A stretch of DNA of 64,000 nt from Rhodothermales bacterium (lineage in GTDB: Bacteria; Bacteroidota; Rhodothermia; Rhodothermales; VXPQ01). Positions 5,701-24,274 of this stretch are shown one piece after another. The notes below the pieces were generated by a model. That model saw only the letters and a list, made by a program, of their open reading frames with translations. It ran no database searches and was not told the DNA's origin. Within the stretch, counting starts at the first letter, position 1; the number at the start of each line of letters is the position of its first letter. Location: the NCBI GenBank assembly GCA_022825385.1, contig JAJDWX010000022.1, forward strand, positions 1-64,000, read 5' to 3'. A program made the position numbers and the translations under genes.

Positions 5701-8700
5701 CTACTTGATGAGCAACATGGTTCTGACGACCCGCTTCTGGTCTGTCGCGAGGACGTAGAGATAGGTTCCGCTGGCTAGCCCGTTGGCGTCGAAGGCTATG
5801 CTATAGCGCGCCGCGGACTGCATGTCGTCGACGAGCGTACGCACCTTTCGTCCGAGAATGTCGTACACCGTGAGGGTTACCCGCGCGGTCTTGTCGAGGG
5901 CGTACTCGATGGTTGTCGTCGGGTTGAACGGGTTGGGGTAATTCTGCTCAAGGGCGAAGGTCGCCGGTATTTCCCGCGTTTTCTCTGCGCGTTCTTCCTG
6001 CGCTTCCGCTATGCCCTGTTCGCGCTCCACGGAAACGACGCCGGTAGCGTCGATGACGGTAACGGTGACGACGGGTCCCGCCGTTACGCCCGCATAGCCT
6101 GCGACCGTGTGGGTGATCGTTACTGTCTCGTCGCCCGTATCGCTGTCCTCGACGGGCGTAACGCGCACGTTCTGCGGGGACTGCCAGTTGCCGCTGTCGA
6201 ATGTGAGCGCGCCCGAGACGGTCGCGGCCTGCTCGTTGCTCGAAAGGGGCGTGACGGTAACCTCCGCGCCGGGGTTGGTGGCGAGGCGAATGGCGTAGCT
6301 GCCGTCGCTTCCGCCTTCTTCGATGGTAAGCGCGAGCGGACTGGCGGTGACGGCGGGCGTATCGTTGTCCGCGACGGTGAGCGTATGTACGCCGACGGTT
6401 CCCACGTCGTATTCCGCGCCGTCCTGGAGGGTCAGGAGGATGGTTTCCGCGCTTTCCGTTTCGCTGTCGTCCGCAATGTTTACTATGATGTCCGCCGTCG
6501 CGCTTCCTCCGGCGACGACGATGGTTCCCGCGCTGGTCGCGGCGCCGCTTATGGCGTAGTCCTCGCCTATGGCGGCGTCTCCCGCTATCGCGTATGTTAT
6601 CGTTACGTCGAGGGACGGCGCGGGGTCAAGGTTTATCGTTACGGCGACGGTTCCCGCTGCCTCCGAAACGTTCAGGCTGGACGAGGCGAAGGCTACCGTC
6701 GGCGTCGGCTCGTCGTCGTCCGTGATGGCGACGGTCACCTGCGGTCCGTCGGTAACGCCGCCGTAGCCCGCGACCGTATGCGTAATAGACACCGTCTCGT
6801 TGCGCGCGTCGTTGTCGTCCTCGGGGATAATGGTTACGTTCTTCGGCGTCTGCCAGTCGCTGCTGTCAAACTCGAGGGCGCCTGAGGATGTTTTCGTGTC
6901 CACGGTCGCCGCGCCCGCGTCGCTGGTTTGGGGCGTGACGGTTACCGTTCCTCCGGGGTCTGTGCGCAGGGTGAGCGCGTAGGTTCCTGCTGCGCCGCCT
7001 TCGGAGAGGTTGAGGGTTAATGGGCTTGCGTTCACGCCCGCCGTGCGCGCGCCCTCGTCGTCGGCTACGGCGACAGTAACCGTCGGTCCCTGCGTCAGGC
7101 TGCCGTAGCCCGCGACCGTATGCGTAATAGACACCGTCTCGTTGCGCGCGTCGTTGTCGTCCTGGGGCGTAACGGTTACGGGCTGCGGCGTCTGCCAATT
7201 GTCGCTGTCGAACGCGAGGGCGCCTGTCGTGGTCGCCGCGCCCGCGTCGCCGGATCGGGGCGTAATGGTCACGGTGGCGCCGGCGCCCGGGTTCGTTGCG
7301 AGCCGCAGCGTATAGGTTCCCGCAAGGCCGCCCTCGTTTACGGTGAGGGACAGCGGGTTCGCTATGACGCCGGGCGCGTCGTTGTCCGCGACGGTGAGCG
7401 TGTGCGTATTCGCGGTTCCCAGCGCGTAGCCCTCGCCTTTTTCGAGGGTCAGGACGATGGTTTCGCTCGCCTCCGTTACGTCGTCGTCCGTCACGGATAC
7501 GGGTATTTCTACGGCCGTGTCTCCTGCCGTCGCAGTAACCGTTCCGCTTGCCGTATAGTCTTCGTTCCGGGTTGCGTCGCCGCCGAGCGCGTAAGCGATC
7601 GTAATGTTCGTGGGGGGCGCGGGGTTCAGGACGACCTGCACGTTCACCGTGCCGGACGCCTCTGTTGCGTTCGCGGCGGGCGCGAGGAAAGATACTTGCG
7701 CCTCGTCGTCGTCCGTGATGGTTATTTCGCCGTCGCCCGCGCGTCCGCCTGTGGCTCCGCCCCCGAGGTTCGTCGCCGCAAGGGTCGGGCTGGCGCCTGT
7801 CGAGGAGGCGGGGATAGATACGGTAACCGTTCTGTCCGCCGCGTCCGCGTCGCCCCGCGCGGCGAGCGTGAGCGTCGCCTCTGTCGCGCTTGGCGTACCC
7901 GATCCTTCGAACGATAGCGTACTCGACGGGGCGTCGAACGTTACGCCCGCCGGCGCGCCGGAGAGGGCCAGGGTAAAGTGCGTACCCGCTTCGCCCCCCG
8001 TAAACTGCAAGGGCGCAGCAAGCGCCTCGCCGTCCGTCAGCGCGCGGCTGAGCGTAAGGGTAAGCGTCGCCGTGGCCGCTGCGTCGTCCTCTGTCGCCGT
8101 CTTGTCCGGCGTCGAAAGCGTCACCGTGGTCGCGTCGTTGTCGTCTACGGCTACCTCGGCCGACGCCGGGTTGCCCACCGCGTAGTCCGCGCCGTCGATC
8201 ACCGTCGCCGTAACCGCGCCGTTCGGTTCGTCGATAGCGTCCGGATTCGTCACGACGGCGAACGTGGCGGACGACTGGTTCGCCGCGATCGTAACCGTCC
8301 TGTTGCCTTCGCCGCCCGCCGCCACGAAGTCGCTGGAGGCCGCGTCGTCCACCTTCACCGTAACGGCGAGGGGGGCGGACGGCACCGGGTTCGCGTTAAG
8401 CGTGAAGGAGGCGGGCGCGCCCTCCTCTACGCCCGTGCCTGCGCTAACAGTGATCGTTGGCTCCGCCCCGGGGTCCTCTATGCCGAAGGAGGCGAGGTTG
8501 TTCGTTTGCGTCGCGCCGCCGCCAAGGCCCGTCGAGGCGGGCGCGCCAAGTCCTATAGCAACCGTCTCCGGCGGGTTTTCTGCGTCTGCGTCCGCCGTCG
8601 CCCGGAACGTTATGGGCGCTGCTTGCGCCGAGGGGCCCGTAAAGACGACCGAGGCGCTGCCGCTTGCAAGGTTATTGTAGGTTACGCCTGCGGGCGTCGT

Positions 8701-11700
8701 CTGCGGCGCGGCGAGCGCATAGTCTGCGCCGCGCGTCGCCGTGCCCGCGAATGTGAGGGGGGCCGTGAGCGTTTCGCCGTCCGTAAGCGCGCGTCCAAGC
8801 GTGAGCGTAAGCGTTTTCGCGCCGCCCTCTGTCACGTTGCCCGTCGGTCCCGCCAGCGTGACGCTCGTGGCGTCGTCGTCCGCCACCGCCACCGAGTCCG
8901 CCGCGCCCGCAGAAGCAATCGTATAGCCCGCCGCGCCCGCAAGCGTTGCTCTGGCGTACCCGTTCGGTTCGTCCGTATTATCCGCCGTCGTCGCCACCGT
9001 GAACGTTTGCGACGCGCTGCCCGCCGAGATCGTCACCGTGCGCGTTGTCTCGTCGCCCGCCGCCACAAAGTCGCCGCTGCCCGTTTCCGCAATCGTTACC
9101 CGCACGTTCGTATTCTGCGTGGGCACGGGGGTCGCGCTGAGCGTGAAGGAGGCCGCTGCCCCTTCGTCTACGCCCGATCCGGCGGAAACAGCTATTTCCG
9201 GTATCATGTCGTCGTCTTCTATCGCTATTTCGCCGTCGCCCGCGCGGCTGCCTGTGGCGCCGCCGCCAAGGCCCGTCGCCGCAAGTTTCGGCGCGCTGCC
9301 GGTCGAGGAGGCGGGGATGGATACCGTCACCGTTTCGTCGTCCTCGTCCGCATCGTCCTCCGCCCTGAGTATGAGCGTGGCCTCCGTAGCGCTTGGCGTA
9401 TTCGTCGGTCCCTCGAACGTAACCGTGCTTGTGGCTGAGGCGAACGTTACGCCCGTCGGATTGCCCGAGAGCGCAAGCGTAAACTCCGCGCCTGCAGAGC
9501 CGCCGGAGAATTGCAAGGGTGCGGCGAGCGCCTCGCCCGCTCTGAGGGCGCGCCCGAGATTCAGCCTGATCGTCGCCGTCGCCGAAGCGTCTCCCTCCTT
9601 CGCCGTCTTGTCCGGCGTCGAAAGCGTTACCGTCGTGGCGTCGTTGTCGTTTACGGACCCCTCGGCGGACGCTGGACTGCCCAACGCGTAGCCCGATCCA
9701 CTCGTTACGGTTGCCGTTACGTTCCCGTTCGGCTCGTCCGCAGTGTCGGCCGTCGTCGCCACCGTGAACGTTTTCGTCGCGCTGTTGGCGTCGATCGTAA
9801 CCGTGCGGGCGTTTTCGCCCGCCGACGGCACGAAATCGCTGTTCGCCGCGTCCGCTATCGTCACCGCTACGTCGAGGGCCTGCGTCGGGGCGGGGTTCGC
9901 CGTTAGCGTGAACGATAGCGCCGTGCCTTCCGTTACCCCCGATCCTGCGCTAATCGTTATCGTCGGGTCCGATGCGGGGTCTGTAATGCTGAAGGAGGGG
10001 AGGTTGTTCATCCCCGTCGCGCCGCCGCCGAGGCCTGTCGTCGCAAGCGCGCCAAGGCCTATTTCCACCGTCTCCGAGCCTTCCGACGCATTGTCTGTCG
10101 AAGCGGAAAACGTAATCGTCGTCGCGGTGGGCGACGGACCCGTAAAGACGACCGAGGCGCTGCCGCTATTCAGGTTATTGTACGCTACGCCTGCCTGGGT
10201 CGCGCCTGCAAGCGTATAGTCCGTACCCCGCGTCGCCGCCCCCGCGAACGCAAGGGGCGCCGTGAGTTTTTCGCCCGCAACGAGCGCGCGTCCGAGCGTG
10301 AGCGCGAGCGTTTTCGCGCCGCCTTCCGTAACGTTTCCCGCCGTCTGGGCCGCCAGCGTCAGCGTCGTCGCGTCGTCGTCCGCAACAGCCACCGAGGCCG
10401 CCGAAGAAGTCGAAGAGACCTGATAGCCCGATCCGCTCTGTACGGTCGCCGTTACGTTCCCGTTCGGCTCGTCCGTATTGTCCGCCGCCGTCGCCACGGA
10501 GTACGTCGCCGTCCTCTGGCCCGCCGCGATGGTAACCATCTTCGACCCTTCGTTCGCCGCCGTCACGAAATCGCTTGTCGCGTCGTCCTCTATGTTCACC
10601 GTCACGTCAAGGTCCGACGACGGGGCCGCGCTTGCCCGCACCGTGAAGGACGCCGCCGCGCCTTCGTCTACCCCCGACCCCGGCGCGATGCTAATCGTCT
10701 GGTCCATTATCCTGAATGTCACAGGGATATTCTTACCCGGTACCGCACCTAGCGCGCCAAGGCCCGCATATATGATACCTTTAATGCGTATAATCGCCGT
10801 TTCCGCCGTACTTTCCGCTACAGCGTCTGCCGTCGCCATGAGCGTGATTACAACTTCCTTCGCCGAGGCGCCCGTGTTCGGACCCGTAAACGTCACCTTC
10901 GGAGATTTGCTGGTGTCGTTGAGGTTCGCGTAGCTTACGCCCGTCGCCGTCGCCCCCGCAAACGTATAGTCCGTACCCCGCGTCGCCGTGCCATCCGCAA
11001 GGAGCGTCACCTCAATCTTTTCGCCCTTTACGAGGCTGCGATTGAGCATTATCCTGATCGTCCTCGCGTTGCCCTCCGTAACGTTGCCTGCAGCTCCCCC
11101 CAAGAACGTAACGGTTGTCTCACTGCAGTCGACTACGCGTGTCGCCCCCGACGAAGGCGTACCCACCGTGTAGCCTGCGCCAGGCTTTACCGTCGCTGTC
11201 ACGTCGCCGTCTGGCTCGTCCACGGTGTCGTCATTCAATGCCTGCACCGTAAAGATGTGTTCTACCTTGTTTGCGGGGATCGTTACGGTTCTGTCTCCCT
11301 CAGCCGCGGTCTTGAGAAAGTCGCCCGGAGCGTCTGCTATCGCAACCGTTACGTCCAGGTCCTGCGTCGGCGCCGGACTTGCCGTTAGGATAAAGGACGG
11401 GTGGGAGGTTCCTTCATGCGCCGGTGCGCCGCCGCGAATGCTTATCGTCGGAATAACCGACGTGTCGTCGTCTTCGAGCGTGAGCGTCGCGCCCGTAATC
11501 GTTACGCCGTCCGCCGCGCCCGATATCGTTATCGTCTCGTCCGCCTGGTCTGTGTTGTCGTTCGTGGGCGTCAGCGTAAACGTCGTCGAATCCGCGTCCG
11601 CTGCCGCAGGAATCACCAGATCGAAGTCTTCCACCGCCGCGAAGCCTGTTACGCCCTGGGCGCCGCTTGCCGCCACGCTCACCGCAATCGTATCCGGCGC

Positions 11701-14529
11701 GCCGAAGCGCGTTGCGCCCTGCACGTCTCCGCGCACCGTAACGGTCGTCGCGCCCGCATTTTCCGCCACGGTCGCCGGACGAACAGAGAGCGCCACCGAT
11801 GGCGCCGCGTCGTTGTCCTCAATGTCAAGAAGGACGCTCTGGTGCGTGGCTGCGCCCGTCGTCTGCGCAGCGTCTACGTCGAGATAGACGCGCTCCGGCC
11901 CCTCGTACAGGTTGTCGTCCGTGATTGTTAGCGTCGTCGTTGCGTCGGGCGTCGTCGCGCCCGCCGAGAACGCGAGCGACGAACTGACGCTAAAGTCCGA
12001 CGCGTCCCCCGGGACGTACGAGCCGTCGCCTGGATTGCTGAGGACGCGCGCCTTGAACGACACTGACGCGCCCCCGGACGGAGCCCCCTCTGAAAGCGTC
12101 GCTGTCACCTCGGCTGTCGCGCCCTCGGCAAGAGAAACAAGACGACGAACGCCATCTGTCTTTTGACCGGCAACGTTTATATCCACCCGCGGACGCGTCT
12201 TGACAACAATGCTCGCCTCGCCGTCCGACGCTTTCGCCAGACGCACCGATGGAGGCAAATTGTACGCTTCCACAATCACCGTTTCGTCCGGCTCGACAAC
12301 GCTGTCGTAGACGCCTGTGAAATCTTCGCCACCGGTTCTGCCACTGAATATAGTGATATTCTGCGTCCTGACGAGGGTATTCGGGTTGCTGAACGAGATG
12401 TCGTTCTCGGAGCCCGTCTTCGCGCGAACGGGTATGGTGACTTCAGCGTGAGGATCAGGCGTCAGGGTAGCCACGACCCTTGCGGATTCTCCCTCGTATA
12501 TGGACGATTTGTTTACCGACAGTACAAGCGTCGACGGCGCCGGATCGTTCTCAATGATAATGCCCACCGCGCTTATTGGGTTAGCGAGGGCGTATGGGTC
12601 CGCGGCGTCCGAAGGGACGCTAAGAAGTACGCGGAAGCTTTCGTTGCCTTCGTGTACATTGTCGTCCAGGAGCGCGACTGTGATCGTCTTTTCCGTATCG
12701 TTCGCGCCAAACGAAAGCGTGCCGGACGTCGCCCTGTAGTCATTCCCTGCCGTCGCCGTAAGGTCCGTTGTCGCGTACGCTACCTTCGCCGCGCCATGGC
12801 CTGTCTTCGTCACAGTCAGCGTCATTTGCTTCGACGCGAGATTCTCCTGGGCGGTGTAGCTGGACGACTGGAAGCGCACGGCCGGCAGGCCATGCGAGTC
12901 CGTAACGTTCACCGTAACGGGGTCGATAGATACGCCGTGGTAGGGGTTGCCCGTATCCGTCGGCACGGTCGCTGCGTGCGCGATGCGTACGCCCTGCTCG
13001 CTATTCTGGTCGTTGTCGCCCCGCCCCTGGACCGTGAACGTTTGCGGCGTATTCCAGTTGCCGCTTGCGCCGCCCGTGAACGTCAGCGTAGCCGAGGAGC
13101 CAAAGGCGCCTCCCGGGGCCGCTACCTGTACCGCCGATCCGTCGCCCGACGTCGCCGTAACCGTAACGTCGGCGTTAGGGTTCGTTGTCAAAACCACTTC
13201 GTACGTCTTCGGAAGGAATTTTTCTATGATCGACAGCGACGAAGTGCTTACGGACACGCCCGGCTTAAGCGTTGCTGGAGGAAGATCGTCGTCGAAAACA
13301 GTTATCACCGTGCTTCGCGGCACGCCAAGCACGGTGGGGTTCGACGTCCCCGCTACGACGGACAGCGTCAAATGAAAGGTCTCGGAGTCGGGGCCCTCGT
13401 ATATGTCATCATTCAGAATGGGAACAGAGATCGTCTTTTCCGTCTCGTTCGCGCCGAACGAGAGCGTGCCCGACGTCGCCGTATAGTCCGCTCCCGCCGT
13501 CGCGCTCACGTCATTTGTGGCGTACCCTGCGGTCGCCGCTCCGTTGCCCGTCTTGCGCACAGTGAGTAATATGCTGGATTTGTTTTCGTTTACAACGGCA
13601 ATACTGCCCGTAAACCTTACAACCGGCAAGCCGTCCGAATCTGTCACGTTCGCCGTAACCGACGGGATGGTTATGCCGTGGTACGGGTTGCTTGCGTCTG
13701 ATACCGTCGCCGCATGCGCGATCGTCACCGTTTCGCTTTGCGTGTCCGAGTCTGAGCGCGCGAAGACGCCTATCGTCTGCGGCGTGCTCCAGTTGCCGCT
13801 ATTGCCTCCTGTGAACGTTAGCGTAGCCGAGGAGCCAAAGGCGCTTGTCTCGTTCTTGACCCGTACCGCCGTCTGGTCGCCCGACGTCGCCGTAACCGTA
13901 ACCGTCGCCCCCGGATCCGAATTCAGGGACACCTCGTACGTCTGCAAGGGATTCGTTTCTATGATCGAGAGCGACGAAGCGCTTACGGACACGCCCGCCC
14001 CTGTTGCATCGATCATGAAAGACGCAGAAATACTTTCTGAGAGTGGCGAACTGTCGGTTTCGGCCCGGCGCAACAGGGCGGTCCCGACGGTGACCGTTAC
14101 CGAGGGCGTTCCGCTTACGCCGGAGCCCGAGTAGGCCAGCGTGATTTCTACGGAACGGTGAGTACTATTGGTATTCAGGCCGTGCGTCTCCCCGTCCTGG
14201 ACCGCAAGCAGCCGACCGCTCGCGATCGTCAAGCCCGCCGGCGCCCCCGACAAGGTGATGTGCGCAAGACCCGCTGCGCTGAGTCGCACCGCCGTGTCGG
14301 GTATAACGGTTTTGCTTCCATTCTTGACGAGGTCGTCGCTGTTAATATACGACTTGGCATCGCGTCTGTCAAGGCGGTCGCCCTCTTCGTTGCCGCCCCC
14401 GCCGGCCGCGATAAACGTGAGTTTCTTCGGGATGAGCGTGATCTTGGCTCCGTCGAGCGCGGAGGAAGCGATCTCGGTGGGGTCGAGCGCGAGCGTCTGC
14501 GCCTGCGCGGAAACAGCGAAAAACGCCAA
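5701..14529 (-). CDS. Giant T9SS-sorted Calx-beta repeat surface protein (start uncertain, possibly phase-variable)
   Basis: The frame is open for about 2,942 residues from a TTG at 14529. The region just upstream in the same frame encodes the rest of a typical signal peptide (FRVFSALCLLLFLAFFAVSA, then QAQ), but has no ATG, GTG or TTG before the 11-C tract at 14621-14631. The true start is therefore probably beyond the tract. The N-terminal module is paralogous to that of the 2154-5447 protein. Then come about 20 Calx-beta and Ig-like repeats, including alternating units with 'AGSGVxEGxxxSFTL' and 'GNVTEGGAKTL', many ending in D/N-rich 'DDND' or 'DDD' calcium-site-like turns. The C-terminus is a T9SS type A sorting domain (NYPNPFNP, 'VYDILGRKV', 'GLASGTYLYVL'). 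It is likely a very large adhesin; the ligand is unknown. Confidence 0.85.
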   Translation of the reverse strand: MAFFAVSAQAQTLALDPTEIASSALDGAKITLIPKKLTFIAAGGGGNEEGDRLDRRDAKSYINSDDLVKNGSKTVIPDTAVRLSAAGLAHITLSGAPAGLTIASGRLLAVQDGETHGLNTNSTHRSVEITLAYSGSGVSGTPSVTVTVGTALLRRAETDSSPLSESISASFMIDATGAGVSVSASSLSIIETNPLQTYEVSLNSDPGATVTVTATSGDQTAVRVKNETSAFGSSATLTFTGGNSGNWSTPQTIGVFARSDSDTQSETVTIAHAATVSDASNPYHGITIPSVTANVTDSDGLPVVRFTGSIAVVNENKSSILLTVRKTGNGAATAGYATNDVSATAGADYTATSGTLSFGANETEKTISVPILNDDIYEGPDSETFHLTLSVVAGTSNPTVLGVPRSTVITVFDDDLPPATLKPGVSVSTSSLSIIEKFLPKTYEVVLTTNPNADVTVTATSGDGSAVQVAAPGGAFGSSATLTFTGGASGNWNTPQTFTVQGRGDNDQNSEQGVRIAHAATVPTDTGNPYHGVSIDPVTVNVTDSHGLPAVRFQSSSYTAQENLASKQMTLTVTKTGHGAAKVAYATTDLTATAGNDYRATSGTLSFGANDTEKTITVALLDDNVHEGNESFRVLLSVPSDAADPYALANPISAVGIIIENDPAPSTLVLSVNKSSIYEGESARVVATLTPDPHAEVTIPVRAKTGSENDISFSNPNTLVRTQNITIFSGRTGGEDFTGVYDSVVEPDETVIVEAYNLPPSVRLAKASDGEASIVVKTRPRVDINVAGQKTDGVRRLVSLAEGATAEVTATLSEGAPSGGASVSFKARVLSNPGDGSYVPGDASDFSVSSSLAFSAGATTPDATTTLTITDDNLYEGPERVYLDVDAAQTTGAATHQSVLLDIEDNDAAPSVALSVRPATVAENAGATTVTVRGDVQGATRFGAPDTIAVSVAASGAQGVTGFAAVEDFDLVIPAAADADSTTFTLTPTNDNTDQADETITISGAADGVTITGATLTLEDDDTSVIPTISIRGGAPAHEGTSHPSFILTASPAPTQDLDVTVAIADAPGDFLKTAAEGDRTVTIPANKVEHIFTVQALNDDTVDEPDGDVTATVKPGAGYTVGTPSSGATRVVDCSETTVTFLGGAAGNVTEGNARTIRIMLNRSLVKGEKIEVTLLADGTATRGTDYTFAGATATGVSYANLNDTSKSPKVTFTGPNTGASAKEVVITLMATADAVAESTAETAIIRIKGIIYAGLGALGAVPGKNIPVTFRIMDQTISIAPGSGVDEGAAASFTVRASAAPSSDLDVTVNIEDDATSDFVTAANEGSKMVTIAAGQRTATYSVATAADNTDEPNGNVTATVQSGSGYQVSSTSSAASVAVADDDATTLTLAAQTAGNVTEGGAKTLALTLGRALVAGEKLTAPLAFAGAATRGTDYTLAGATQAGVAYNNLNSGSASVVFTGPSPTATTITFSASTDNASEGSETVEIGLGALATTGLGGGATGMNNLPSFSITDPASDPTITISAGSGVTEGTALSFTLTANPAPTQALDVAVTIADAANSDFVPSAGENARTVTIDANSATKTFTVATTADTADEPNGNVTATVTSGSGYALGSPASAEGSVNDNDATTVTLSTPDKTAKEGDASATATIRLNLGRALRAGEALAAPLQFSGGSAGAEFTLALSGNPTGVTFASATSTVTFEGPTNTPSATEATLILRAEDDADEDDETVTVSIPASSTGSAPKLAATGLGGGATGSRAGDGEIAIEDDDMIPEIAVSAGSGVDEGAAASFTLSATPVPTQNTNVRVTIAETGSGDFVAAGDETTRTVTISAGSASQTFTVATTADNTDEPNGYARATLAGAAGYTIASAGAADSVAVADDDATSVTLAGPTGNVTEGGAKTLTLTLGRALTDGETLTAPLTFAGTATRGADYALAAPQTTPAGVTYNNLASGSASVVFTGPSAQAAPITFRATADADAENPPETVAIGLGAPASTGLGGGATQTNNLASFGIEDPGAEPTITVSAGTGVEEGAPASFTLNANPVPSAPLAVTVKVDDAASSDFVAAGGEGNRTVTIAANQSSATFAVVTNPDAIDEPNGAVTATVIDGADYAVGNPASAEVAVDDNDATTVTLSTPDKTATEDDAAATATLTLTLSRALTDGEALAAPLQFTGGEAGTHFTLALSGAPAGVTFDAPSSTLSFEGSGTPSATEATLTLAARGDADAADRTVTVSIPASSTGASPTLAATNLGGGATGGRAGDGEITITDDDEAQVSFLAPAANATEASGTVNVQVVLNPAPPTNITIAYALGGDATRNEDYTASGTVTATAGDTAVEIPVSVTDDDVTEASETIVLTLEKGEGYALGTANTHTLTVADNDAPGVIANPLSLTVNEGGLAGTYTLRLATNPGAGATVTITPRSGDAGAATTTGALAFDSDNWQTPQPVTVTPQDDNDARNETVSITHTVAGYGSLTQGPTVTVAVADDEGARTAGVNASPLTLNLSEGGAAGTYALTLRTDPGGTVTVTPQTSDAGAATVDTKTSSGALEFDSSDWQTPKNVTIIPEDDNDARNETVSITHTVAGYGGVTDGPQVTVAITDDDEPTPTVAFASSSLNVSEAAGTVAVTINLDPAPSLDVTITYAIAGDAAIGEDYAISGAATSAGTIVVAGGSATADIIVNIADDSETESAETILLTLQDGAEYDVGTVGVHTLTVADNDTPAVTASPLALTIEEGGSDGSYAIRLATNPGAEVTVTPLSSNEQAATVSGALTFDSGNWQSPQNVRVTPVEDSDTGDETVTITHTVAGYAGVTAGPVVTVTVIDATGVVSVEREQGIAEAQEERAEKTREIPATFALEQNYPNPFNPTTTIEYALDKTARVTLTVYDILGRKVRTLVDDMQSAARYSIAFDANGLASGTYLYVLATDQKRVVRTMLLIK

Positions 14530-14992: not shown

Positions 14993-15244
14993 TTACGCGA
15001 CAACGCCGGCTACGGCGCGGCGCACCAGATTCAGCACGGCATGGGCTCCTGCGGAACTGGACCGCGCCATGTCAAAGGGCGTTGCGCCTTCGAGCAGCGG
15101 ATGAGGGCGATTCAGGAAACGATCCATGCGCGCCGCATCGCCGTGGTATGCCTGGGCGACGGCGTCAATGATGCGATCCAGTTCGCAGGTGTGTTCGCTG
15201 TGTTTTTGCGGAAAAGGCTTGAGCGACTTTTTCATGGGACGCAA
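14993..15244 (-). CDS. DUF2384 (Xre/MbcA/ParS toxin-binding) antitoxin-like protein
   Basis: A small protein of 83 residues (TTG start at 15244, eight bases after GAGG) or 80 residues (ATG at 15235). It matches the antitoxin toxin-binding domain: 'ARMDRFLNRPHPLLEGATPFDMA', then 'AGAHAVLNLVRRAVAG'. Such proteins bind and neutralise RES toxins. A dead RES toxin gene follows directly, so this antitoxin is probably an orphan. It has no separate HTH region, unlike the longer Xre-type members. It lies three bases after the Phd gene stop and is likely co-transcribed with it. A relic of a similar gene lies at 906-950. Confidence 0.65.
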   Translation of the reverse strand: MRPMKKSLKPFPQKHSEHTCELDRIIDAVAQAYHGDAARMDRFLNRPHPLLEGATPFDMARSSSAGAHAVLNLVRRAVAGVVA

Positions 15245-15247
15245 TGA

Positions 15248-15478
15248 TCAAACCTCGCAGGCAGACAATTCTTCTTCCGGGAGCGGATCGAAAAAGCTGT
15301 CGTCGAGCGCTATCCGGCCCTTCCATGAACCAAATTGCGGCTTCCCCTGGCACTGGAGACGCACAAGGCGCGCGACCGGCTTGCCGTTGCGGGCAATGAC
15401 GACTTCCTCGCCCTGCTCGACTTGCGCGAGCAGGCGCGACAAATGGGTTTTCGCTTGATGGACGTTCACTACGGGCAT
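15248..15478 (-). CDS. Phd/YefM-family antitoxin
   Basis: The 76-residue protein starts at an ATG with GAGGAG nine bases upstream. It begins MPVVNVHQAKTHLSRLLAQV and continues 'GEEVVIARNGKPVARLVRL', the classic Phd/YefM DNA-binding N-terminus. The C-terminal part ('FDPLPEEELSACEV') resembles antitoxins paired with PIN-domain VapC toxins, which it would wrap around. No PIN or Doc toxin follows; the next gene is the DUF2384 antitoxin. It is divergent from hsdM with about 100 bp between the starts. It could also be a regulator of the shared intergenic region. Confidence 0.85.
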   Translation of the reverse strand: MPVVNVHQAKTHLSRLLAQVEQGEEVVIARNGKPVARLVRLQCQGKPQFGSWKGRIALDDSFFDPLPEEELSACEV

Positions 15479-15548: not shown

Positions 15549-15584
15549 TTGACTTTTTGCAAAACGTTTGTTATACTGCATATA
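15549..15584 (+). promoter_or_regulatory. Promoter of the restriction-modification operon (leaderless start)
   Basis: TTGACT at 15549-15554 and TATACT at 15572-15577 are separated by exactly 17 bp, a near-consensus housekeeping promoter. The hsdM ATG begins at 15584, six bases after the -10 box, where transcription would be expected to begin. No ribosome binding site precedes this ATG. The mRNA is therefore predicted to be leaderless. Confidence 0.6.
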
Positions 15585-15600
15585 TGGCAGATATAGCAAA
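15567..15600. promoter_or_regulatory. Inverted repeat over -10 box and hsdM start (putative operator)
   Basis: The left arm TTTGTTATACTGC (15567-15579) and right arm GCAGATATAGCAAA (15587-15600) are inverted copies with one mismatch and one single-base gap, separated by 7 bp. The repeat covers the -10 box and the ATG of hsdM, so a protein bound here would block the promoter. The HTH domain at the N-terminus of HsdM is the obvious candidate ligand. Confidence 0.5.
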
Positions 15601-17419
15601 TATTCAATCCGTCGAGCCAGTTCTCCGGGCCATTCGAGCCAATCTGGACCTTACGCAGGCGCAGCTTGCGGAACGTCTTGGCGTGTCTTTCGCCACGGTC
15701 AATCGCTGGGAGGGGGGTGCCACAATGCCCCAGAAGGCGGCCCGATTGGCAATTCTAGATCTTGCTCAGGAAGCTGGGGTCGATACCTCGGACCCTGACG
15801 TTAATGCGGTCCGCTCTGCCGTATATGTAACCCGCCGCCGCTCTCGAAAGGATCACGCCACTGCTTCCACCAGGTCCATGGAGCAGATGCTCTGGGACGC
15901 GGCTTGCGCTATCCGGGGCGAAAAGGATGCGCCCAAATTCAAGGACTATTTGTTGCCCCTCCTGTTTCTAAAGCGGCTTTCCGATGTGTTCGACGACGAG
16001 GTGCATCGGTTGGCGGAAGAATATGGAAGCCTGGAGACCGCATGGGAAATTGTCGATGGAGATCACAATTTGGTGCGTTTTTATCTGCCACCGGAAGCGC
16101 GTTGGAGCGTCATCAGCGGTCGCGAAGAGGATGAGTTGCTCGACAGTACAGGCCCGGACACCCGTTCGAGGGACATCGGGGAGCGTCTGACGGATGCGGT
16201 ACGCGCTGTGGTGCGTTATAACCCGTCTCTTGGGGGCGTTATCGATCTGGTAGATTTCGCATCCGAGCGAAACGGCGAGCGCGATATAAATCCGGCCAAA
16301 CTGAGGCAGGTCGTAGAAACATTTTCCGATTCTCGGTACCGGCTGGGCCTTGCAGACGTGCAGCCCGACTTCCTCGGACGGGCCTACGAGTACTTGCTGC
16401 GCAAGTTTGCGGAGGGCTCCGGTCAGAGTGCGGGCGAATTCTTTACGCCGACCGAGGTGGGTTTTCTGATGGCTCACATACTGCGCCCGAAACCCGGCGA
16501 GCGTTGTCACGACTATGCTTGCGGGTCGGCAGGGCTATTGGTCAAACTCCAGCTTGTCGCCCGCGAACTTGACCCGACCAGCCGCGTACCGCTCAATCTA
16601 TATGGGCAGGAACTCCAAGCGGAGAGCTACGCTGTCGCTCACATGAACGCGATCATCCATGATATGGAGGTAAAGATCGCCCGCGGCGACACGATGATCA
16701 ACCCCAAGTTCAAGACACCTTCGGGGCAGATTGATACTTATCATGTCGTGGTCGCCAACCCGATGTGGAACCAGCCGTTCAATTCGGATTTATTCGCCAA
16801 CGATTCGTTTGATCGCTTCCGTACTGCGGGCGGTCCAACGACTGGCAAGGGGGATTGGGCCTGGTTACAGCACACCCTTGCGTGTATGAACGAGCGCGGA
16901 CGGGCTGCCGTGGTGCTTGACACAGGCGCTGTCACGCGCGGGTCGGGCAGTAAGCATGAAGACAAGGAGCGCAACATCCGCAAATGGTTCGTCGACCATG
17001 ACCTGATCGACGGCGTGATCCTGTTGCCGGACAATCTCTTCTATAATACGACCGCTGCCGGGGTTATCGTGGTGTTGTCGAAGCACAAGCCAGAAGCGCG
17101 AAAGGGTAAGATCGTGTTGCTTAACGCGAGTCGTCGAATGAAAAAGGGGCGACCCAAGAACTACATACCCAAGGAAGATATCCGTCCGCTTGCGGCGGCA
17201 TTCGTGAAGGGCGAAGCTGTGGAAGGGGAGATTGTCGTTATCACAAGGGAGCAGGCGGCGAAGGCGGATTACAATTTGAGTCCGAGTCGGTGGGTGAGTC
17301 GGATTAGCACTGTAGCGCAGCGTCCGATCAAAGACATTGTTGCCGATATGCAGAGTCTTGATGATGAGGCTCGTCAGGTTGATGCGTCACTGAAAAAAAT
17401 GCTGGTACATTTGCTATGA
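15584..17419 (+). CDS. hsdM: Type I restriction-modification DNA methyltransferase subunit HsdM with N-terminal HTH
   Basis: A protein of 611 residues from the ATG at 15584. Residues 11-65 form an Xre/HTH_3 domain ('[20 protein letters not shown]'). From about residue 95 there is an HsdM N-terminal helical domain ('[11 protein letters not shown] ... [18 protein letters not shown]'), then the N6-adenine methyltransferase domain. The SAM-binding motif I is DYACGSAG (310-317) rather than the usual DPxxGSGG. The catalytic motif IV is NPMW (392-395) rather than NPPF/Y/W. It would methylate adenine in the site chosen by HsdS and complete the restriction complex. The promoter and inverted repeat overlap its start, suggesting self-repression. 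Its stop overlaps hsdS by ATGA. Confidence 0.9.
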
Positions 17420-18762
17420 ATGCTTTCTGGACATGGCACCCGCTCGGAGATCTATTCGAGATTGGTGCGGGCAAAACCATGTCCGCCGCCGCTCGAAGCG
17501 GTCCTGACAAGACACCATTTCTCAGGACATCGAATGTCCTTTGGGATGAGGTAGATATATCGTTTATAGATGAGATGTCGATTCCGGAGCGCGAATTGTC
17601 TAACAAACTACTGCGGCCCGGCGACATGCTTGTTTGCGAAGGCGGTGAGATCGGTCGTGCGGCTATCTGGAGCGGGGAAGTCGAAACCATGTCGTTTCAG
17701 AATCACCTGCATCGCTTACGGCCTGTTGGCGAGGGGGTCGAACCACGTTTCTATGTGTATTTCTTGCAATCCGCTTTTACTCAACTAGGCATTTTTGAGG
17801 GGGCAGGCAACAAGACGACGATACCGAATCTGTCGCGCAGCCGGTTAGCAGGACTTGAGGTGCCGCAACCTGAGATCGGTGAGCAGCGGGCTATTGTTAC
17901 CGTGCTTGCAAGAGTACGTGAAGCTATCAAAATGCATGATCAGGGTGTCGTACTTGCACAGGAGTTGAAGCGTGTTGCGATGCAGACCCTGTTCACGTGC
18001 GGCCTGCGCGGCGAAGCACAGAAGGAAACCGAGATTGGACCGTTGCCGGAGAGTTGGGAGGTGGTGCCCTTGGACGCGCTTTGTACTTCTACTGGTTCAG
18101 TTGATCTGCGGTCCGAAGGCAGCCGAAAGATCAATTATGTGGATGTTTCATCCATTTCTCGCGATTACCTGCGCATTGAAACGACATCCTCATACATTCT
18201 TAAAGAGGCGCCCGGTCGCGCAAGGAAGCACATTTTGACCGGTGATATCATATTTGCAACCGTGCGACCCACTCTCTTGCGCGTCGCCGTTGTCCCTGAT
18301 GAACTGAATAATCAGGTTTGCTCCACCGCGTTCTGTGTTCTTCGTCGGGATAGCAAGATGACTGCTCGGAATTTTACCTACTACGCCGTGCAGCGTAGCC
18401 AGTTTGTTCAGCAACTTGCGGAAATACAAACAGGTGCCAGCTATCCGGCTGTAACGGATCGGATGATCAAGGAACAGCCAATCCCATTGCCGAGTCTGCA
18501 AGAACAGCATGAAATTGTTGCTATCCTCAATACTATTGACTGCAAGATTGACCTGCATCGTAGGAAGCGTATGGTGCTCGAAAATTTGTTCAAGGCCTTG
18601 TTATACAAACTCATGACAGGAAAGATCAGTACGGGGCAACTTGACCTACCGGCAGTTCGAAAAAAACGGGAAGAGCATTGCAGGGGGACTATCCCGGATT
18701 TACGGGACCCTGACAACACTCAATACATGCTGTATCTCAAAAATATTACAGAGGAAACATGA
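17416..18762 (+). CDS. hsdS: Type I restriction-modification specificity subunit HsdS
   Basis: The 448-residue protein has two target-recognition domains, each followed by a conserved helix. The first half begins '[19 protein letters not shown]' and ends in '[19 protein letters not shown]'. The second begins '[14 protein letters not shown]' and ends in '[18 protein letters not shown]'. This is the normal HsdS architecture, defining a bipartite recognition sequence that cannot be predicted by eye. It overlaps hsdM by ATGA and the following gene by ATGA, indicating translational coupling. No inverted repeats for domain shuffling were noticed. Confidence 0.92.
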
Positions 18763-19721
18763 AAGTATCCAGCGTAATAAATTCGGAAATTTCTGATACC
18801 CAAGCTGCGATCAGAACCTATTCTAACTATAACGCAGCATGGTGTCTGTGGACGCAGACGGATTGTACGCCATACGAGGCACAATCTCGCTTGGAGGCGT
18901 TTTCACAACTTCAACCGTCTTCGCGCTACAATCACCAATCAGTAAGACAACATTTACTACGAGGAAACCTAACATTGAAGCTCATTCAAGGCATTCCCAT
19001 TGACGAGAGGCCCGATTTCGCCATGGTCAGTGCGCTCTGGTTGTCCGTACAAGCATACTATGCAGTTCATGGATTCGGCATGGCTTTTTTATCCGCTAAA
19101 CATGGTGTCAACAATCTACCGAAAACACATGGTGCATTTATGCGAGAGGCCGCAGAACGTATAGTCCGTCATCTTTTTCCATCTCCTTTTTCAGCTATAC
19201 TTAAAAATGGTTATAAGGGGTGCAAAGATGCCCAGCCTGAATTGATAAACATTAGCGATAATCGTATGTCTATAGGGTCGGGATTTAATATCGAACGACC
19301 AAACGAAACAACGAGAGATGCTCATATCGCACAGTGTCTCAATACAACACGTCAAAGATTGATTGAATTTAAGTTGAAACAAGAAAGAAAGAAGGCTAAA
19401 AAGCCAGAAAAGATACGCGGTATCCTGAAAAAACAAAAGAAAATCGATATTGCACACAGTATCACACCAACAACAATTTTTGATTATTTATACCGTGCTC
19501 GAATCAAATCAAATTATCAGGATCCGACTATGTACCATGAGGGATCCAATGATGCAGATGCAATACTGGATTTGGTACGTAACATTCAAAAACTTACAAT
19601 GATGTTATGCACTTTTCTTGTCGCCATCCTATGGCAGATTATCGATACAACCGATAGGGATAAATTTAGAGAGGATGTAGACATTGATTGCCTGCTGAAA
19701 ATTATAGACAGAAAGCAATAA
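18759..19721 (+). CDS. Unknown protein in RM operon, HEPN-like helical region, C-terminal hydrophobic segment
   Basis: A 320-residue protein of no firmly recognised family. It overlaps hsdS by ATGA and has GAGGAA upstream. Its DNA is visibly AT-richer than the neighbouring genes. Residues about 85-140 ('SALWLSVQAYYAVHGFGMAF' then 'PKTHGAFMREAAER') resemble the 'YYAxFHAARALL...KTH' helices of HEPN proteins of the UPF0332 kind, but a clear RxxxxH nuclease motif is not seen. Residues about 205-235 are very basic ('KQERKKAKKPEKIRGILKKQ'), suggesting nucleic-acid binding. Near residues 280-300 there is a hydrophobic run ('LTMMLCTFLVAILWQII') that could be a membrane helix. Its position inside the operon implies a role with the restriction system. 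HEPN homology is a weak inference. Confidence 0.6.
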   Translation: MKVSSVINSEISDTQAAIRTYSNYNAAWCLWTQTDCTPYEAQSRLEAFSQLQPSSRYNHQSVRQHLLRGNLTLKLIQGIPIDERPDFAMVSALWLSVQAYYAVHGFGMAFLSAKHGVNNLPKTHGAFMREAAERIVRHLFPSPFSAILKNGYKGCKDAQPELINISDNRMSIGSGFNIERPNETTRDAHIAQCLNTTRQRLIEFKLKQERKKAKKPEKIRGILKKQKKIDIAHSITPTTIFDYLYRARIKSNYQDPTMYHEGSNDADAILDLVRNIQKLTMMLCTFLVAILWQIIDTTDRDKFREDVDIDCLLKIIDRKQ

Positions 19722-19739
19722 ATATTTTGATGATATTAG

Positions 19740-21326
19740 ATGGTATCTCCAGACTCACGTAGCGCGAAACTCGGTGTACCCATGACCATTGACCAAATCA
19801 CAACCCTGGTCGCCGCCGGCGAATCCGAGACCCTCGAGTTCAAGCATACGACGGGGGCGCGCCGCGAGGCAGCCAAAACCGTGTGCGCCATGCTCAACCA
19901 CCGTGGGGGGCATGTGTTGTTTGGCGTGACCCCTGAAGGCAAAGTAGAGGGCCAGCAGGTAGGCAAACGCACTATCGAGGACTTGAGCGAAGAACTTCGG
20001 AGAATCGAACCGCAAGAATTGCCCGTCATTGAGCGGATTCGCGTGAATGGCGACCGCGAAGTGCTGGCGGTTGAAGTGGGTAGAGGACCGTCGCGACCGT
20101 ATATGTATCGCGGAAAGGCGTATCGTCGGGTCGGCAACACGACCGTAGCCATGTCTTCTCACGAATACCGTCGCATGCTTATGGAGCAAATGCACGGCGA
20201 AATGCGCTGGGAGACCCAGCCCGCCGAAGGATGGTCCGTCGAGCATCTCGACGTCGCCCAAATTCGGCGAGTCGTTGCGGAAGCGGTTCGGCGCGAGCAT
20301 CTGGATGAGCCGCTAACCCGGGATCCGATTGATTTGCTGCGCGGACTTGGGCTTTTGCAAGAGGGCGTACTTCTGCGGGCGGCCGTAGTGCTGTTCGGCA
20401 AGCGGGAGCGGCTGATGTCTCGTCTGCCGCAATGCAAACTCCGGGTTGCCCGTTTCCGGGGCGTTGACAAGATGGATTTTCTGGATAATCGCCAGTTTAA
20501 CGGAAATGCCTTCTCATTGCTTGCAAGCGCCGAGCGATTTTTGCGCGACAGCCTTCCCGTCGCTGCGCGGTTCGAATCAGACCGTATTGAGCGGATCGAC
20601 GAACCGCTCTATCCTCAGCCAGCGACGAGAGAAGCGCTGGCGAATGCGATATGCCACCGCGACTATTCGATACATGGAGGATCGATAGGAGTGGCAATCT
20701 ACGCCGACCGCCTGGAAATCACCTCGGCCGGCCCACTGCCTTTCGACCTGACGCCGGAGCGCTTGTTTGTTTCGCACCCCTCGCGTCCCTGGAATCCGTT
20801 GATTGCGCAAACGTTTCATCGCTGCGGAATCATTGAAGAGTGGGGGACTGGAACGCTCAAAATGATGGATTGGGTAGATTCGGCGGGGCTTCCGCCTCTG
20901 GAAATAGAGGATGTCAACGATTCTGTGACCGTACGTTTCCGGCATGGCCAATTCGTGCCGGAGCAATACAGATATGGGCGGCCTGCTGATCGTAAAGCAG
21001 CGATTCTTAGCTTGCTATATCATTCAGAGGATGGCTTGTCGCGTCGAGAGATAAATACCCATTTGACTGCCGTTGTCTCCGAACGTCAATTGCGAAGAAC
21101 CCTTGAAGAGTTGAAAGGCGAAGGCTTGGTAATTTCCACGAATCAAGGAAAACTAACACGCTGGAAGCTTTCGAAGGGAGCGCGAAGGGAGCGCGAAAGG
21201 GGCGCGAAAGGGGCGCGAAAGGGGTTTAAGGGGGTGGATAGAGGTCTTATTCCCATCGTTGCAATACAAAGAAACATAGCCGTTATTCAGTATTCCGAGA
21301 GGATTGACAGCAATAGCCCGGCATGA
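19740..21326 (+). CDS. AlbA_2 / divergent ATPase (COG2865-type) protein in RM operon
   Basis: The frame gives 528 residues from the ATG at 19740, or 514 from the ATG at 19782 ([20 protein letters not shown]), where family similarity begins. The AlbA_2 domain ('[11 protein letters not shown]', '[15 protein letters not shown]') is followed by a GHKL-like ATP-binding region ('[20 protein letters not shown]', '[13 protein letters not shown]') and a C-terminal winged helix. Such proteins are often labelled RecG-like but contain no helicase domain; they are usual in defence islands and may act as DNA-binding sensors or regulators. After the winged helix, a tandem repeat has added the tail '[16 protein letters not shown]' and about 30 further residues. 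The stop overlaps hsdR by ATGA. Confidence 0.8.
21171..21234 (+). repeat. GCGCGAAAGGGG tandem repeat, right copy, within AlbA_2 gene
   Basis: About four to five 11-12 bp units of GCGCGAAAGGGG, with two variant units GCGCGAAGGGA at the start. It encodes an arginine/glycine/lysine-rich tail after the normal end of the winged-helix domain. It is related to the repeat at 14835-14881. Confidence 0.75.
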
Positions 21327-24274
21327 CTGACCTGAAAATCACAGAATCCGCCGCTGTCCAGTTCCCGATGGTTCGCCATGCGGAGACTATCGGCTGGGTG
21401 CCCGTCCCGCCCAGTACTGCCTTGCAGAAACGGGGGGGTGAGGCGGGAACGCTATTCCGGGACGAGATCGAAGGAGCGTTGAAGCGTTTCAATGTCTGGA
21501 TGACGGACGATGCTATTCGGTCTGTTATCGACCAGTTTGAAGCAATTAACCCCACTATCGAAGGCAACCGGGAGATACTTGCCTGGCTGCGTGGCGAACG
21601 GCAATGGTACGACCAGGACGAGCAACGTTCTCGGCGGGTTCGGTTCATCGATTTCGAGAATCCGGGAAATAATGCACTACACGTTACGTGGGAGTGGAGG
21701 ATAAAGCCTTTGGCCCGCAAGGGTAATCGGGCGGACGCTATTTTCGTAGTCAACGGCGTACCGGTTGCTATCGTCGAGCACAAGAATCCAACGGATGCCG
21801 ACGCTATCGAACGCGGCATTACTCGACTGCGGCGCTACGAGAAGGAAACGCCCGAGTTGCTGGGGGCGGCGCAACTCTTCAATGTCACGCACCTTCTCGA
21901 ATACTGGTATGGCGTTACTTGGAATGTATCGCATCGTTTTATGGCGCGCTGGAAGGAACGACCAGAGGACACCTATAAGTTCGCCGTCCAGTCGTTTTTC
22001 GAACCGACCGATTTCCTGCGTACGTTGCGCGACTGGATTCTTTTCTATGTTGAGGATGGCGAAACGAAGAAGTCTGTTCTTCGTCAGCACCAGCGTCGCG
22101 CCGCTGACCGCATTGTCGAGCGCTGTTCCAATCAGGAAAAACGTCGAGGGCTCATCTGGCACACGCAAGGTTCTGGCAAAACCTTCACGCTGCTAACCGC
22201 CGCCCGGCTTATTCTCGAACGAGAGGACCGGTTTCGTACGCCGACGGTGGTCGTCGTAGTGGACCGGACGGAGCTCGAAGGACAGCTGAAGGGCTGGGTA
22301 GAGCGCTTGCTTGGAGAAATGCAGCAGCAGGATATCATTGTTTCTGAAGCTCATTCCAAAATCGAATTGCGGGATATGTTTACGAGCGACAGGAGAGGAC
22401 TGATTATCTCAATGATACACAAGTTCGAAGGTATCGAGAAAAACGCCAACACCCGCGACAACATATACGTGTTCATCGACGAGGCGCACCGATCCGTGGC
22501 CAAGGATCTGGGTACGTATTTGATGGCAGCCTTGCCCAATGCTACGATTATCGGATTTACCGGCACTCCGATTGCCCGTACGCACCAGGGCGAAGGAACG
22601 TTCAAGATATTTGGGGCAGAAGACGAGCGGGGTTACCTGGACAAATACACGATTGCTGAATCTATTGAAGACAAGACGACGCTGCCGATTCGCCACACGA
22701 TGGCGCCCAGCGAAATGAGGGTGCCTGCAGAACGGCTCGACCAGGAGTTTTTCTCTCTTGCCGAAAGCGAAGCTGTCACCGATGTTGACGAACTTAACAA
22801 AGTGCTCGACAGAGCCGTTGGTTTGCGCACTTTTTTGACAGCCGATGATCGTATAGAGAAGATTTCCGCCTTTGTCGCCGATCACTATAAGGAAAATGTG
22901 AGGCCGCTCGGTTACAAGGCTTTTCTTGTTGCCGTGAATCGGGAGGCCTGCGCCAAATATAAGGCCGCGCTTGATAAACACCTTCCGAGCGAATGGAGCG
23001 CCGCAGTCTATACCGAGAACACTGACGATATTGTTCAGCGTCCGCTGGTCGCCGAATTACAGCTTTCGTCAAAGCGTGAGGAAGATGTCCGCCGCATGTT
23101 CAAGAAAGCAGGTCAGAATCCGCAGATTCTCATTGTCACTGACAAGTTACTGACCGGCTACGACGCGCCGTGTCTTTACTGCATGTATCTCGACAAACCG
23201 ATGCGCGACCATGTGCTTTTGCAGGCTATTGCACGCGTAAATCGGCCTTATGGGGATGGAAAAGCCGACCGCAAGCGCGTCGGCCTTGTTGTTGATTTTG
23301 TGGGAGTACTCGGAGAATTAAAGAAAGCGTTGCGATTCGACTCCGAGGATGTAAGTGGGGTTATTGAGGGGCTTGACCTCCTGAAAAAGGACTTTCTGGA
23401 AAAAATTCAGAAGGTAAAGGCGAATTACCTAACTGGAGAAGGCGAAGGATATACCGATGAACATCTTGAACGAATCGTTTATGGACGCTTTCTGGATTCT
23501 GAATCGCGTGAGGAATTCTTTAAGGCTTATAAGGAGCTCGAAGCCCTTTGGGAGATTTTGTCGCCTTCGCCGGAACTGCGCGATCATATAGAAGATTTTG
23601 GACAGCTTGCCCGTCTTTACGATACGGTACGGAACGCACATGCGAAGACCATTTCTTACCAAACGGATCTGGCGCAAAAAACACGCCTCATGGTGCAGGA
23701 AAGCGCAGCTCAGTATAAACTTGGCGATTCTACGAAGACAGTGATGTTCGATGCAGGTACGCTGGAAATGCTTCGGGGAGAGCCTGGTCCGAAAGAAGCC
23801 AAGGTGTTCAATCTGGTGCGCAGCCTCCGCTGGGAAATCGAAAATCGGCCCGAGATGGAAGCCATCCTGATACCTCTAAAAGAGCGGGCGGAATCTATTC
23901 TCCAGGATATGGAGCGCCGCCGCACGGACGGGTTGGCGGCCATGGATTTATTGATGGTTTTGGCTCGCGAAAAGGATGCTGCGGGCGAGGAACTGAAAAA
24001 CAGCGAACTTACGCCGCGCGCCTTTGGCGTCTATTGGACACTGAAGGAAGACAACGGCTTGCGAGCAGCCGGGATCGATTCCATGGAATTGGCGCGAGAT
24101 ACCGAAGCGCTCCTTGAGCGGTTTCCCAACGCGGCGGTGAATTCTGAAGAAAGACGACGATTGCGGGCGTATCTGTATAAACCGCTTCTGGCGCTGTCCG
24201 AAGAAGACCGTCGCCGTATCGTAGCGCGAATTCTTGTAACGCTTTTTGGTAAGAATGCCGATGCAGACGCATGA
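21323..24274 (+). CDS. hsdR: Type I restriction endonuclease subunit HsdR
   Basis: A 983-residue protein with the full HsdR layout. An N-terminal PD-(D/E)xK nuclease has D138 and E152-x-K154 ('[20 protein letters not shown]'). A superfamily 2 translocase follows, with Walker A TQGSGKT (281-287), DEAH (386-389) and motif III 'IIGFTGTPI', motif V/VI 'LTGYDAP' and '[10 protein letters not shown]', and then a helical C-terminus that docks on HsdM. It cleaves DNA lacking the HsdM/HsdS methylation mark after ATP-driven translocation. It overlaps the AlbA_2 gene by ATGA, and the next gene starts within its last codons. All catalytic motifs are present, so it should be active. Confidence 0.95.

Follow-up and report, generated by a model that had tools for sequence, protein, structure and literature searches.

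The hsd operon and the start of hsdM

The window, which is the whole 64,000-nt stretch of DNA analyzed here, carries a type I restriction-modification locus, a phage-defense system, on its plus strand. The locus opens with hsdM (15584–17419), which an open reading frame and Pfam matches identify as the gene of an HTH-fused, 611-aa methyltransferase subunit, and continues with hsdS (17416–18762), an ORF without assigned function (18759–19721), a gene for a Schlafen/AlbA_2 domain protein with a RecG-like C-terminal domain (19740–21326), and hsdR (21323–24274). Pfam detected all three type I subunits at this one locus: HsdM with its HsdM_N and N6_Mtase domains, HsdS with target-recognition domains, and HsdR with translocase and nuclease domains. 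The type I models of PADLOC also match the locus, and among NCBIfam models the one for hsdR scored above its cut-off while the match of the hsdM model fell below. The genes overlap or nearly touch: the hsdS start overlaps the hsdM stop codon in an ATGA at 17416, a second ATGA lies at 18759, an 18-nt gap precedes 19740, and there is a further overlap at 21323. Because hsdR overlaps the gene before it, it is presumably under the same promoter as hsdM. The two extra genes between hsdS and hsdR (18759–21326) encode a 320-aa protein, for which Pfam and PADLOC scans gave no family match, and the AlbA_2/RecG-C-like protein.

Several features on the minus strand lie upstream of this operon. A divergent Phd/YefM antitoxin gene (15248–15478) adjoins it and is followed by an 83-aa ORF that has only an Xre/MbcA/ParS C-terminal toxin-binding domain; the pair occupies 14993–15478. 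No toxin was seen, and the pair is perhaps a toxin-antitoxin remnant. Farther out, positions 5701–14529 encode a 2942-aa protein of Calx-beta repeats that ends in a secretion-system (Por) sorting tail.

The N-terminus of HsdM is a helix-turn-helix domain. The original prediction had placed an Xre-type HTH at residues 11–65, and Pfam confirmed it with matches to HTH_3 (residues 14–49, E 1.3e-8) and HTH_31 (14–61), followed by HsdM_N (99–247) and N6_Mtase (260–573). Based on Pfam and AlphaFold2, we delimit the domain, a proposed DNA-binding head, to residues 10–64 (15611–15775, plus strand). AlphaFold2 predicted an all-helical HTH domain with pLDDT values of 86–92 over residues 11–60 and a low-confidence linker at residues of about 70–98; the full-length model, whose mean pLDDT was 51, was used only for the boundary between HTH and linker. 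The nearest solved folds are those of the P22 C2 repressor and C.Kpn2I (probability 1.00, with weak E values of 0.02–0.03), and a sequence search against solved structures also lists P22 C2 and 4yba (C.Kpn2I). There is no separate small regulator at the locus, and another similar HTH was found only on another contig.

Upstream of hsdM is a near-consensus promoter, consisting of a −35 element TTGACT (15549–15554) and an extended −10 element, TGTTATACT (15569–15577), in which TG occupies 15569–15570 and the hexamer TATACT 15572–15577. The spacer between TTGACT and TATACT is 17 nt long, and the six nucleotides GCATAT separate TATACT from the hsdM ATG at 15584, just as had been described. The two hexamers match the consensus at 10 of 12 positions, in addition to the extended −10, and the site is one of two scoring at least 10/12 in 10.2 kb. 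The predicted transcription start of hsdM is the A of the ATG or an adjacent nucleotide. The original prediction had also pointed to the missing ribosome binding site. It is indeed missing, but this is unremarkable in a genome where only 5 of the 28 long ORFs in the window, whose starts are themselves uncertain, are preceded by a Shine-Dalgarno-like motif. Given this rarity, we dropped the missing motif as support for a leaderless start.

A 9-bp repeat array at HTH-HsdM starts

The −10 element and the ATG had been proposed to lie under a 13/14-nt inverted repeat. Such a repeat is present, formed by TTTGTTATACTGC (15567–15579) and GCAGATATAGCAAA (15587–15600), and is imperfect, with one indel and mismatches. 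In the window alone it is barely above chance: of 60 first-order shuffles of its 150-nt segment, 3 scored as high, and the window sequence taken alone is thus no proof of the repeat. Comparison with homologues revealed that the element is primarily an array of 9-bp units rather than a palindrome. In the window this array spans 36 bp (15566–15601) and consists of one inverted and three direct units: the inverted unit GTTTGTTAT (15566–15574, minus strand; reverse complement ATAACAAAC; 13.0 bits), a weak, degenerate direct unit ACTGCATAT (15575–15583, plus strand; 2.0 bits), the direct unit ATGGCAGAT that holds the start codon (15584–15592, plus strand; 11.2 bits), and the direct unit ATAGCAAAT (15593–15601, plus strand; 13.3 bits). 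The palindrome first noticed is the outer pair of this array. Since direct spacing of 9 bp dominates across homologues, a simple palindrome was kept as an operator candidate only in the sense of that outer pair.

A scan of GTDB genomes recovered 182 relatives of HTH-HsdM. The best 80 of these 182 are 67–78% identical to the window protein over the HTH as well as HsdM, and from them we took 70 non-redundant HTH-HsdM genes for array analysis. The homologues come from at least 13 phyla (Pseudomonadota, Actinomycetota, Chloroflexota, Acidobacteriota, Nitrospirota, Gemmatimonadota, Latescibacterota, Binatota, Deinococcota, Spirochaetota, Myxococcota, Melainabacteria, and Hydrogenedentota), and identity this high across so many phyla points to horizontal spread of the family. 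Among the plasmid matches listed, alignments begin at residue 73 or later and lack the HTH; phage records searched with HTH-HsdM gave no match. The nearest HsdM without an HTH among 148 kindred genomes is 53% identical.

In the upstream DNA of the best 80 relatives, a recurring 9-mer surrounds almost all start codons. With a weight matrix refined on the 70 sequences, we derived the unit consensus ATRRCAAAY. The segment from −45 to +30 relative to the ATG holds 167 direct and 62 inverted units, compared with 17 and 3 in shuffled copies, and flanking segments of the same 70 homologues hold 0–22 per strand. Direct units follow one another at 9 bp (84 cases) or 18 bp (31 cases), and inverted and direct units are 9, 18 or 27 bp apart. 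One inverted and three direct units in 36 bp was the best architecture tried, with a score of 28.6 (shuffles, −5.2), and the score dropped to 5–6 when the units were set 8, 10 or 11 bp apart. In a minority of homologues, several Actinomycetota among them, the inverted unit lies 5 bp further out. The array begins at −18 in 27 sequences (class A, which includes the window) and at −27 in 35 (class B), two registers that differ by exactly one 9-bp unit relative to the ATG. Parsimony places nine class changes on the tree, at least three of which are forced by well-supported branches. Conservation is near zero upstream of −45. Position 4 of the unit is R, and covariation between the arms in class A was judged by eye only. 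Conservation of the repeat among homologues with the same fusion, the check named in the original prediction, is strongly positive (n = 70, at least 13 phyla).

The coding part of the array has an unusual codon usage. In codons 2–6, ATA accounts for 63% of Ile codons, ACA for 78% of Thr codons and GCA for 62% of Ala codons, compared with 4, 9 and 11%, respectively, over the remaining coding sequence. Many homologues have units ahead of the ATG, and an in-frame stop falls within or next to a unit in L031, L032 and L070. Together with the forced rare codons, this shows that the constraint acts on DNA and not on protein.

The array is specific to the fused genes. None was found at 22 HsdM genes lacking the HTH, including those 47–53% identical, a finding that ties the array to the fusion. 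The 3.0-Mb host genome has a single match to a two-unit pattern, at the start of hsdM, and 17 other genomes together have 11, nearly always at hsdM; a reversed-pattern control gave 0. In 385 genomes from the class of Paracoccus marinus (L009), a three-unit pattern gave three matches, all at HTH-HsdM starts. Over all loci, 585 kb in total, 121 adjacent unit pairs lie at starts and 10 in the rest. One of these ten (in L025) falls in a remnant about 628 nt upstream of hsdM, where a degenerate second HTH-HsdM start (MAKSTDCKSISPTSQAIRASL...) has its own unit pair, and several others are in upstream clusters of Nitrospirota.

Viral contigs gave 26 matches to the array pattern, none at an HTH-HsdM and instead in tandem start repeats; the pattern alone is therefore not diagnostic in AT-rich DNA. 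Related phage contigs (L121, L122, L126, L127, L129, L130, L132, L140, L143, and L145) share a conserved tandem-start leader with units of the type ATAACAAAC/ATGGCAAAC, which opens a 12-aa ORF (MANILGEISWPH).

Four of the Nitrospirota loci (L019, L021, L028, and L032) carry a second, distal cluster of several TTTGCTAT/ATAGCA units roughly 110–230 bp upstream of the hsdM ATG. The units in these clusters are inverted and mostly 9–11 bp apart, which suggests distal operator sites or looping, and a DNA-binding role explains the clusters most easily. These four loci and L037, also from Nitrospirota, form a group in which the whole array precedes the ATG, and these genes may have a leader.

The homologues also bear on the leaderless start. 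Of the 70 sequences, 36 have TTGAC at −37, −36 or −35 relative to the ATG; no other position has it more than twice, and 32 sequences lack an exact TTGAC near −35. In class A, 10 of 13 TTGAC-bearing promoters, the window included, have a −10 hexamer matching at 5–6 of 6 positions that ends 6 nt (once 7) before the ATG. The distance from TTGAC to the ATG is kept in class B as well, where −10 hexamers are poorer, so that TTGAC lies at about −35/−36 from the ATG in both classes. Promoter and ATG thus shift together along the array. A promoter-to-ATG distance that is fixed despite two array registers is expected if transcription starts at the A of the ATG, and it supports the leaderless promoter originally proposed. 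Comparative evidence for a leaderless hsdM start is strong across the family, from which we infer a leaderless hsdM transcript in this organism.

A model of autoregulation and its alternatives

Taken together, the fused HTH and the conserved array at the start codon strongly suggest that the hsdM gene is under self-control. In our model, transcription of the hsd operon from a sigma-70-type promoter would begin with the first nucleotide (A) of the hsdM start codon and yield a leaderless mRNA, and four 9-bp half-sites would extend from the −10 element over the transcription start and through codons 1–6 (−18 to +18). The Xre-type HTH of HsdM would bind these half-sites, most likely with several HsdM subunits side by side, and bound HsdM would keep RNA polymerase off the promoter or prevent its escape. 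The modification subunit would thereby cap its own operon, HsdR included, by negative autoregulation. We consider it likely, judging from sequence comparison, that the HTH of HsdM binds the array and represses the leaderless operon in this way; both the identity of the binder and repression as the sign of the effect are inferred. A near-consensus promoter under half-sites is the layout of a repressor, and the recognition-helix region of the HTH (F36, N40–E43, and G45), which is invariant in 47 sequences, would match the nearly invariant half-site. Counting against the model, the 9-bp period is not a helical turn, which bears on the fit of neighboring heads, and the second unit of the window array is weak.

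Because the downstream genes overlap or nearly touch and there is no other array, HsdM should cap the whole operon. By the same token, with hsdR in the same operon and no second array, HsdM alone could not make the nuclease appear later than the methylase. The original prediction had cast the methyltransferase as a built-in autorepressor in the manner of a C protein. Array conservation favors the autorepressor, whereas C-protein-like timing of methylase and nuclease finds no support in an operon that includes hsdR.

Other readings of the array have to be weighed against this one. HsdM bound through its HTH might act mainly as an activator, or as a two-stage switch in which low HsdM levels activate and high levels repress. 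Several half-sites of unequal strength would suit such a switch, as would the class B promoters with their weak −10 hexamers; together with the homologues without an exact TTGAC near −35 (32/70), these promoters leave some room for activation or for promoter use assisted by the HTH. C proteins both activate and repress at their own promoters (PMC12707154), and in PvuII the transcript activated by the C protein has no leader (PMC2997769). Still, we regard this reading as unlikely: the array lies over the −10 element, the start and the first codons and not upstream of −35, where activators usually bind, and the window promoter, with its 10/12 match and extended −10, should need no activation.

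Alternatively, the repeats could be a translation signal for leaderless mRNA, with A-rich tandem ATGRCAAAY starts capturing the ribosome. A-rich early codons can help translation initiation, and the phage contigs have tandem ATGGCAAAC starts and no HTH. We find this very improbable, since the units reach into the untranscribed −10/−35 region, one of them is inverted, distal clusters lie at −110 to −230 in some relatives, and HsdM genes without an HTH have no repeats. There is similarly little to recommend a different host regulator as the binder of the array, with the HsdM HTH serving, for example, in DNA scanning or targeting. Binding by HsdM itself is deduced from sequence, which leaves room for such a regulator; however, the array follows HTH-HsdM in at least 13 phyla, is absent at hsdM genes lacking the HTH, and occurs about once per genome, and one and the same regulator would have to exist in all these hosts. 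The marginal score of the repeat in the window alone (3/60 shuffles) might suggest a chance palindrome beside a coincidental promoter in an AT-rich intergenic stretch, a notion that family-wide conservation with sharp borders refutes and that we give almost no credence.

Self-repression by HsdM could also have a further layer. As a doubtful possibility, the HTH might read the assembly or methylation state, such that HsdM would repress only when not occupied at unmethylated chromosomal sites. If this were true, HsdM would sense a naive genome, leave the leaderless operon active as long as methylation is unfinished, and afterwards shut it down through the cooperative 9-bp array, in what would be a widespread, undescribed type I clade. 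A leaderless start under an operator could, moreover, explain how one expression module works across hosts with differing ribosome-binding rules.

Comparison with known regulatory systems

Type I hsd operons are known to be regulated by separate proteins. RptR represses such an operon via three direct repeats that overlap the −10 element (PMC12255303); unlike the HTH fused to HsdM, it is a separate protein, encoded upstream of hsdM, and its site is a 6-bp palindrome (TAGCTA). HsdC of Mollicutes, a homologue of the C proteins, recognizes direct repeats in the −10/start region of a type I hsd promoter (PMC5282649). Some HsdC homologues are fused to methylases, and the fusions listed are all type II (PMC5282649). 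Type I HsdC, by contrast, is a separate protein, and its motifs, (GTGTTA-N5)2 and (AACGAAT-N12)3, differ from ATRRCAAAY.

C proteins such as those of PvuII, AhdI, and Kpn2I likewise have an Xre-type HTH and regulate their own genes, as HsdM putatively does. The C transcripts of PvuII and AhdI are leaderless (PMC2997769; PMC5333194), and C.Kpn2I binds inside its own reading frame and stalls the polymerase (PMC6237814), a precedent for an array site within the reading frame of hsdM. C proteins, however, are separate small proteins that time the nuclease against the methylase, whereas the HTH of HsdM belongs to the methylase itself, and they recognize C-boxes with GACT/AGTC cores, in contrast to the ATRRCAAAY half-site found here.

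The closer precedent, in our view, is not the C proteins but the type II regulatory methyltransferases (SsoII, Ecl18kI, and EcoRII), in which an N-terminal HTH represses the enzyme's own gene by binding an operator that overlaps its promoter (PMC3874152; PMC12707154; PMC3978073). For EcoRII, repression needs methylated sites (PMC12707154). M.SsoII, M.Ecl18kI, M.EcoRII, and ScrFI, all established as autorepressing, share with HsdM the N-terminal fusion of HTH and methyltransferase; HsdM also has, by sequence conservation, an operator-like site over its own promoter, where binding by the HTH and repression are putative. The differences are that these are single-chain type II enzymes, while HsdM is the N6-adenine subunit of M2S/R2M2S, and that here a 9-bp array lies over a leaderless start with hsdR in the same operon. 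All the described cases that we found are type II methyltransferases, and HsdM is type I. In the openly accessible literature that we searched, no type I HsdM is described as being fused to its own regulator and provided with an operator. As far as we could find, self-regulation of a methyltransferase has so far been described only for the simpler type II systems; in a family from at least 13 phyla, the type I modification subunit apparently carries its own regulator and has a predicted target defined to the base pair, which brings type I self-control within reach of a simple test by gel shift and reporter.
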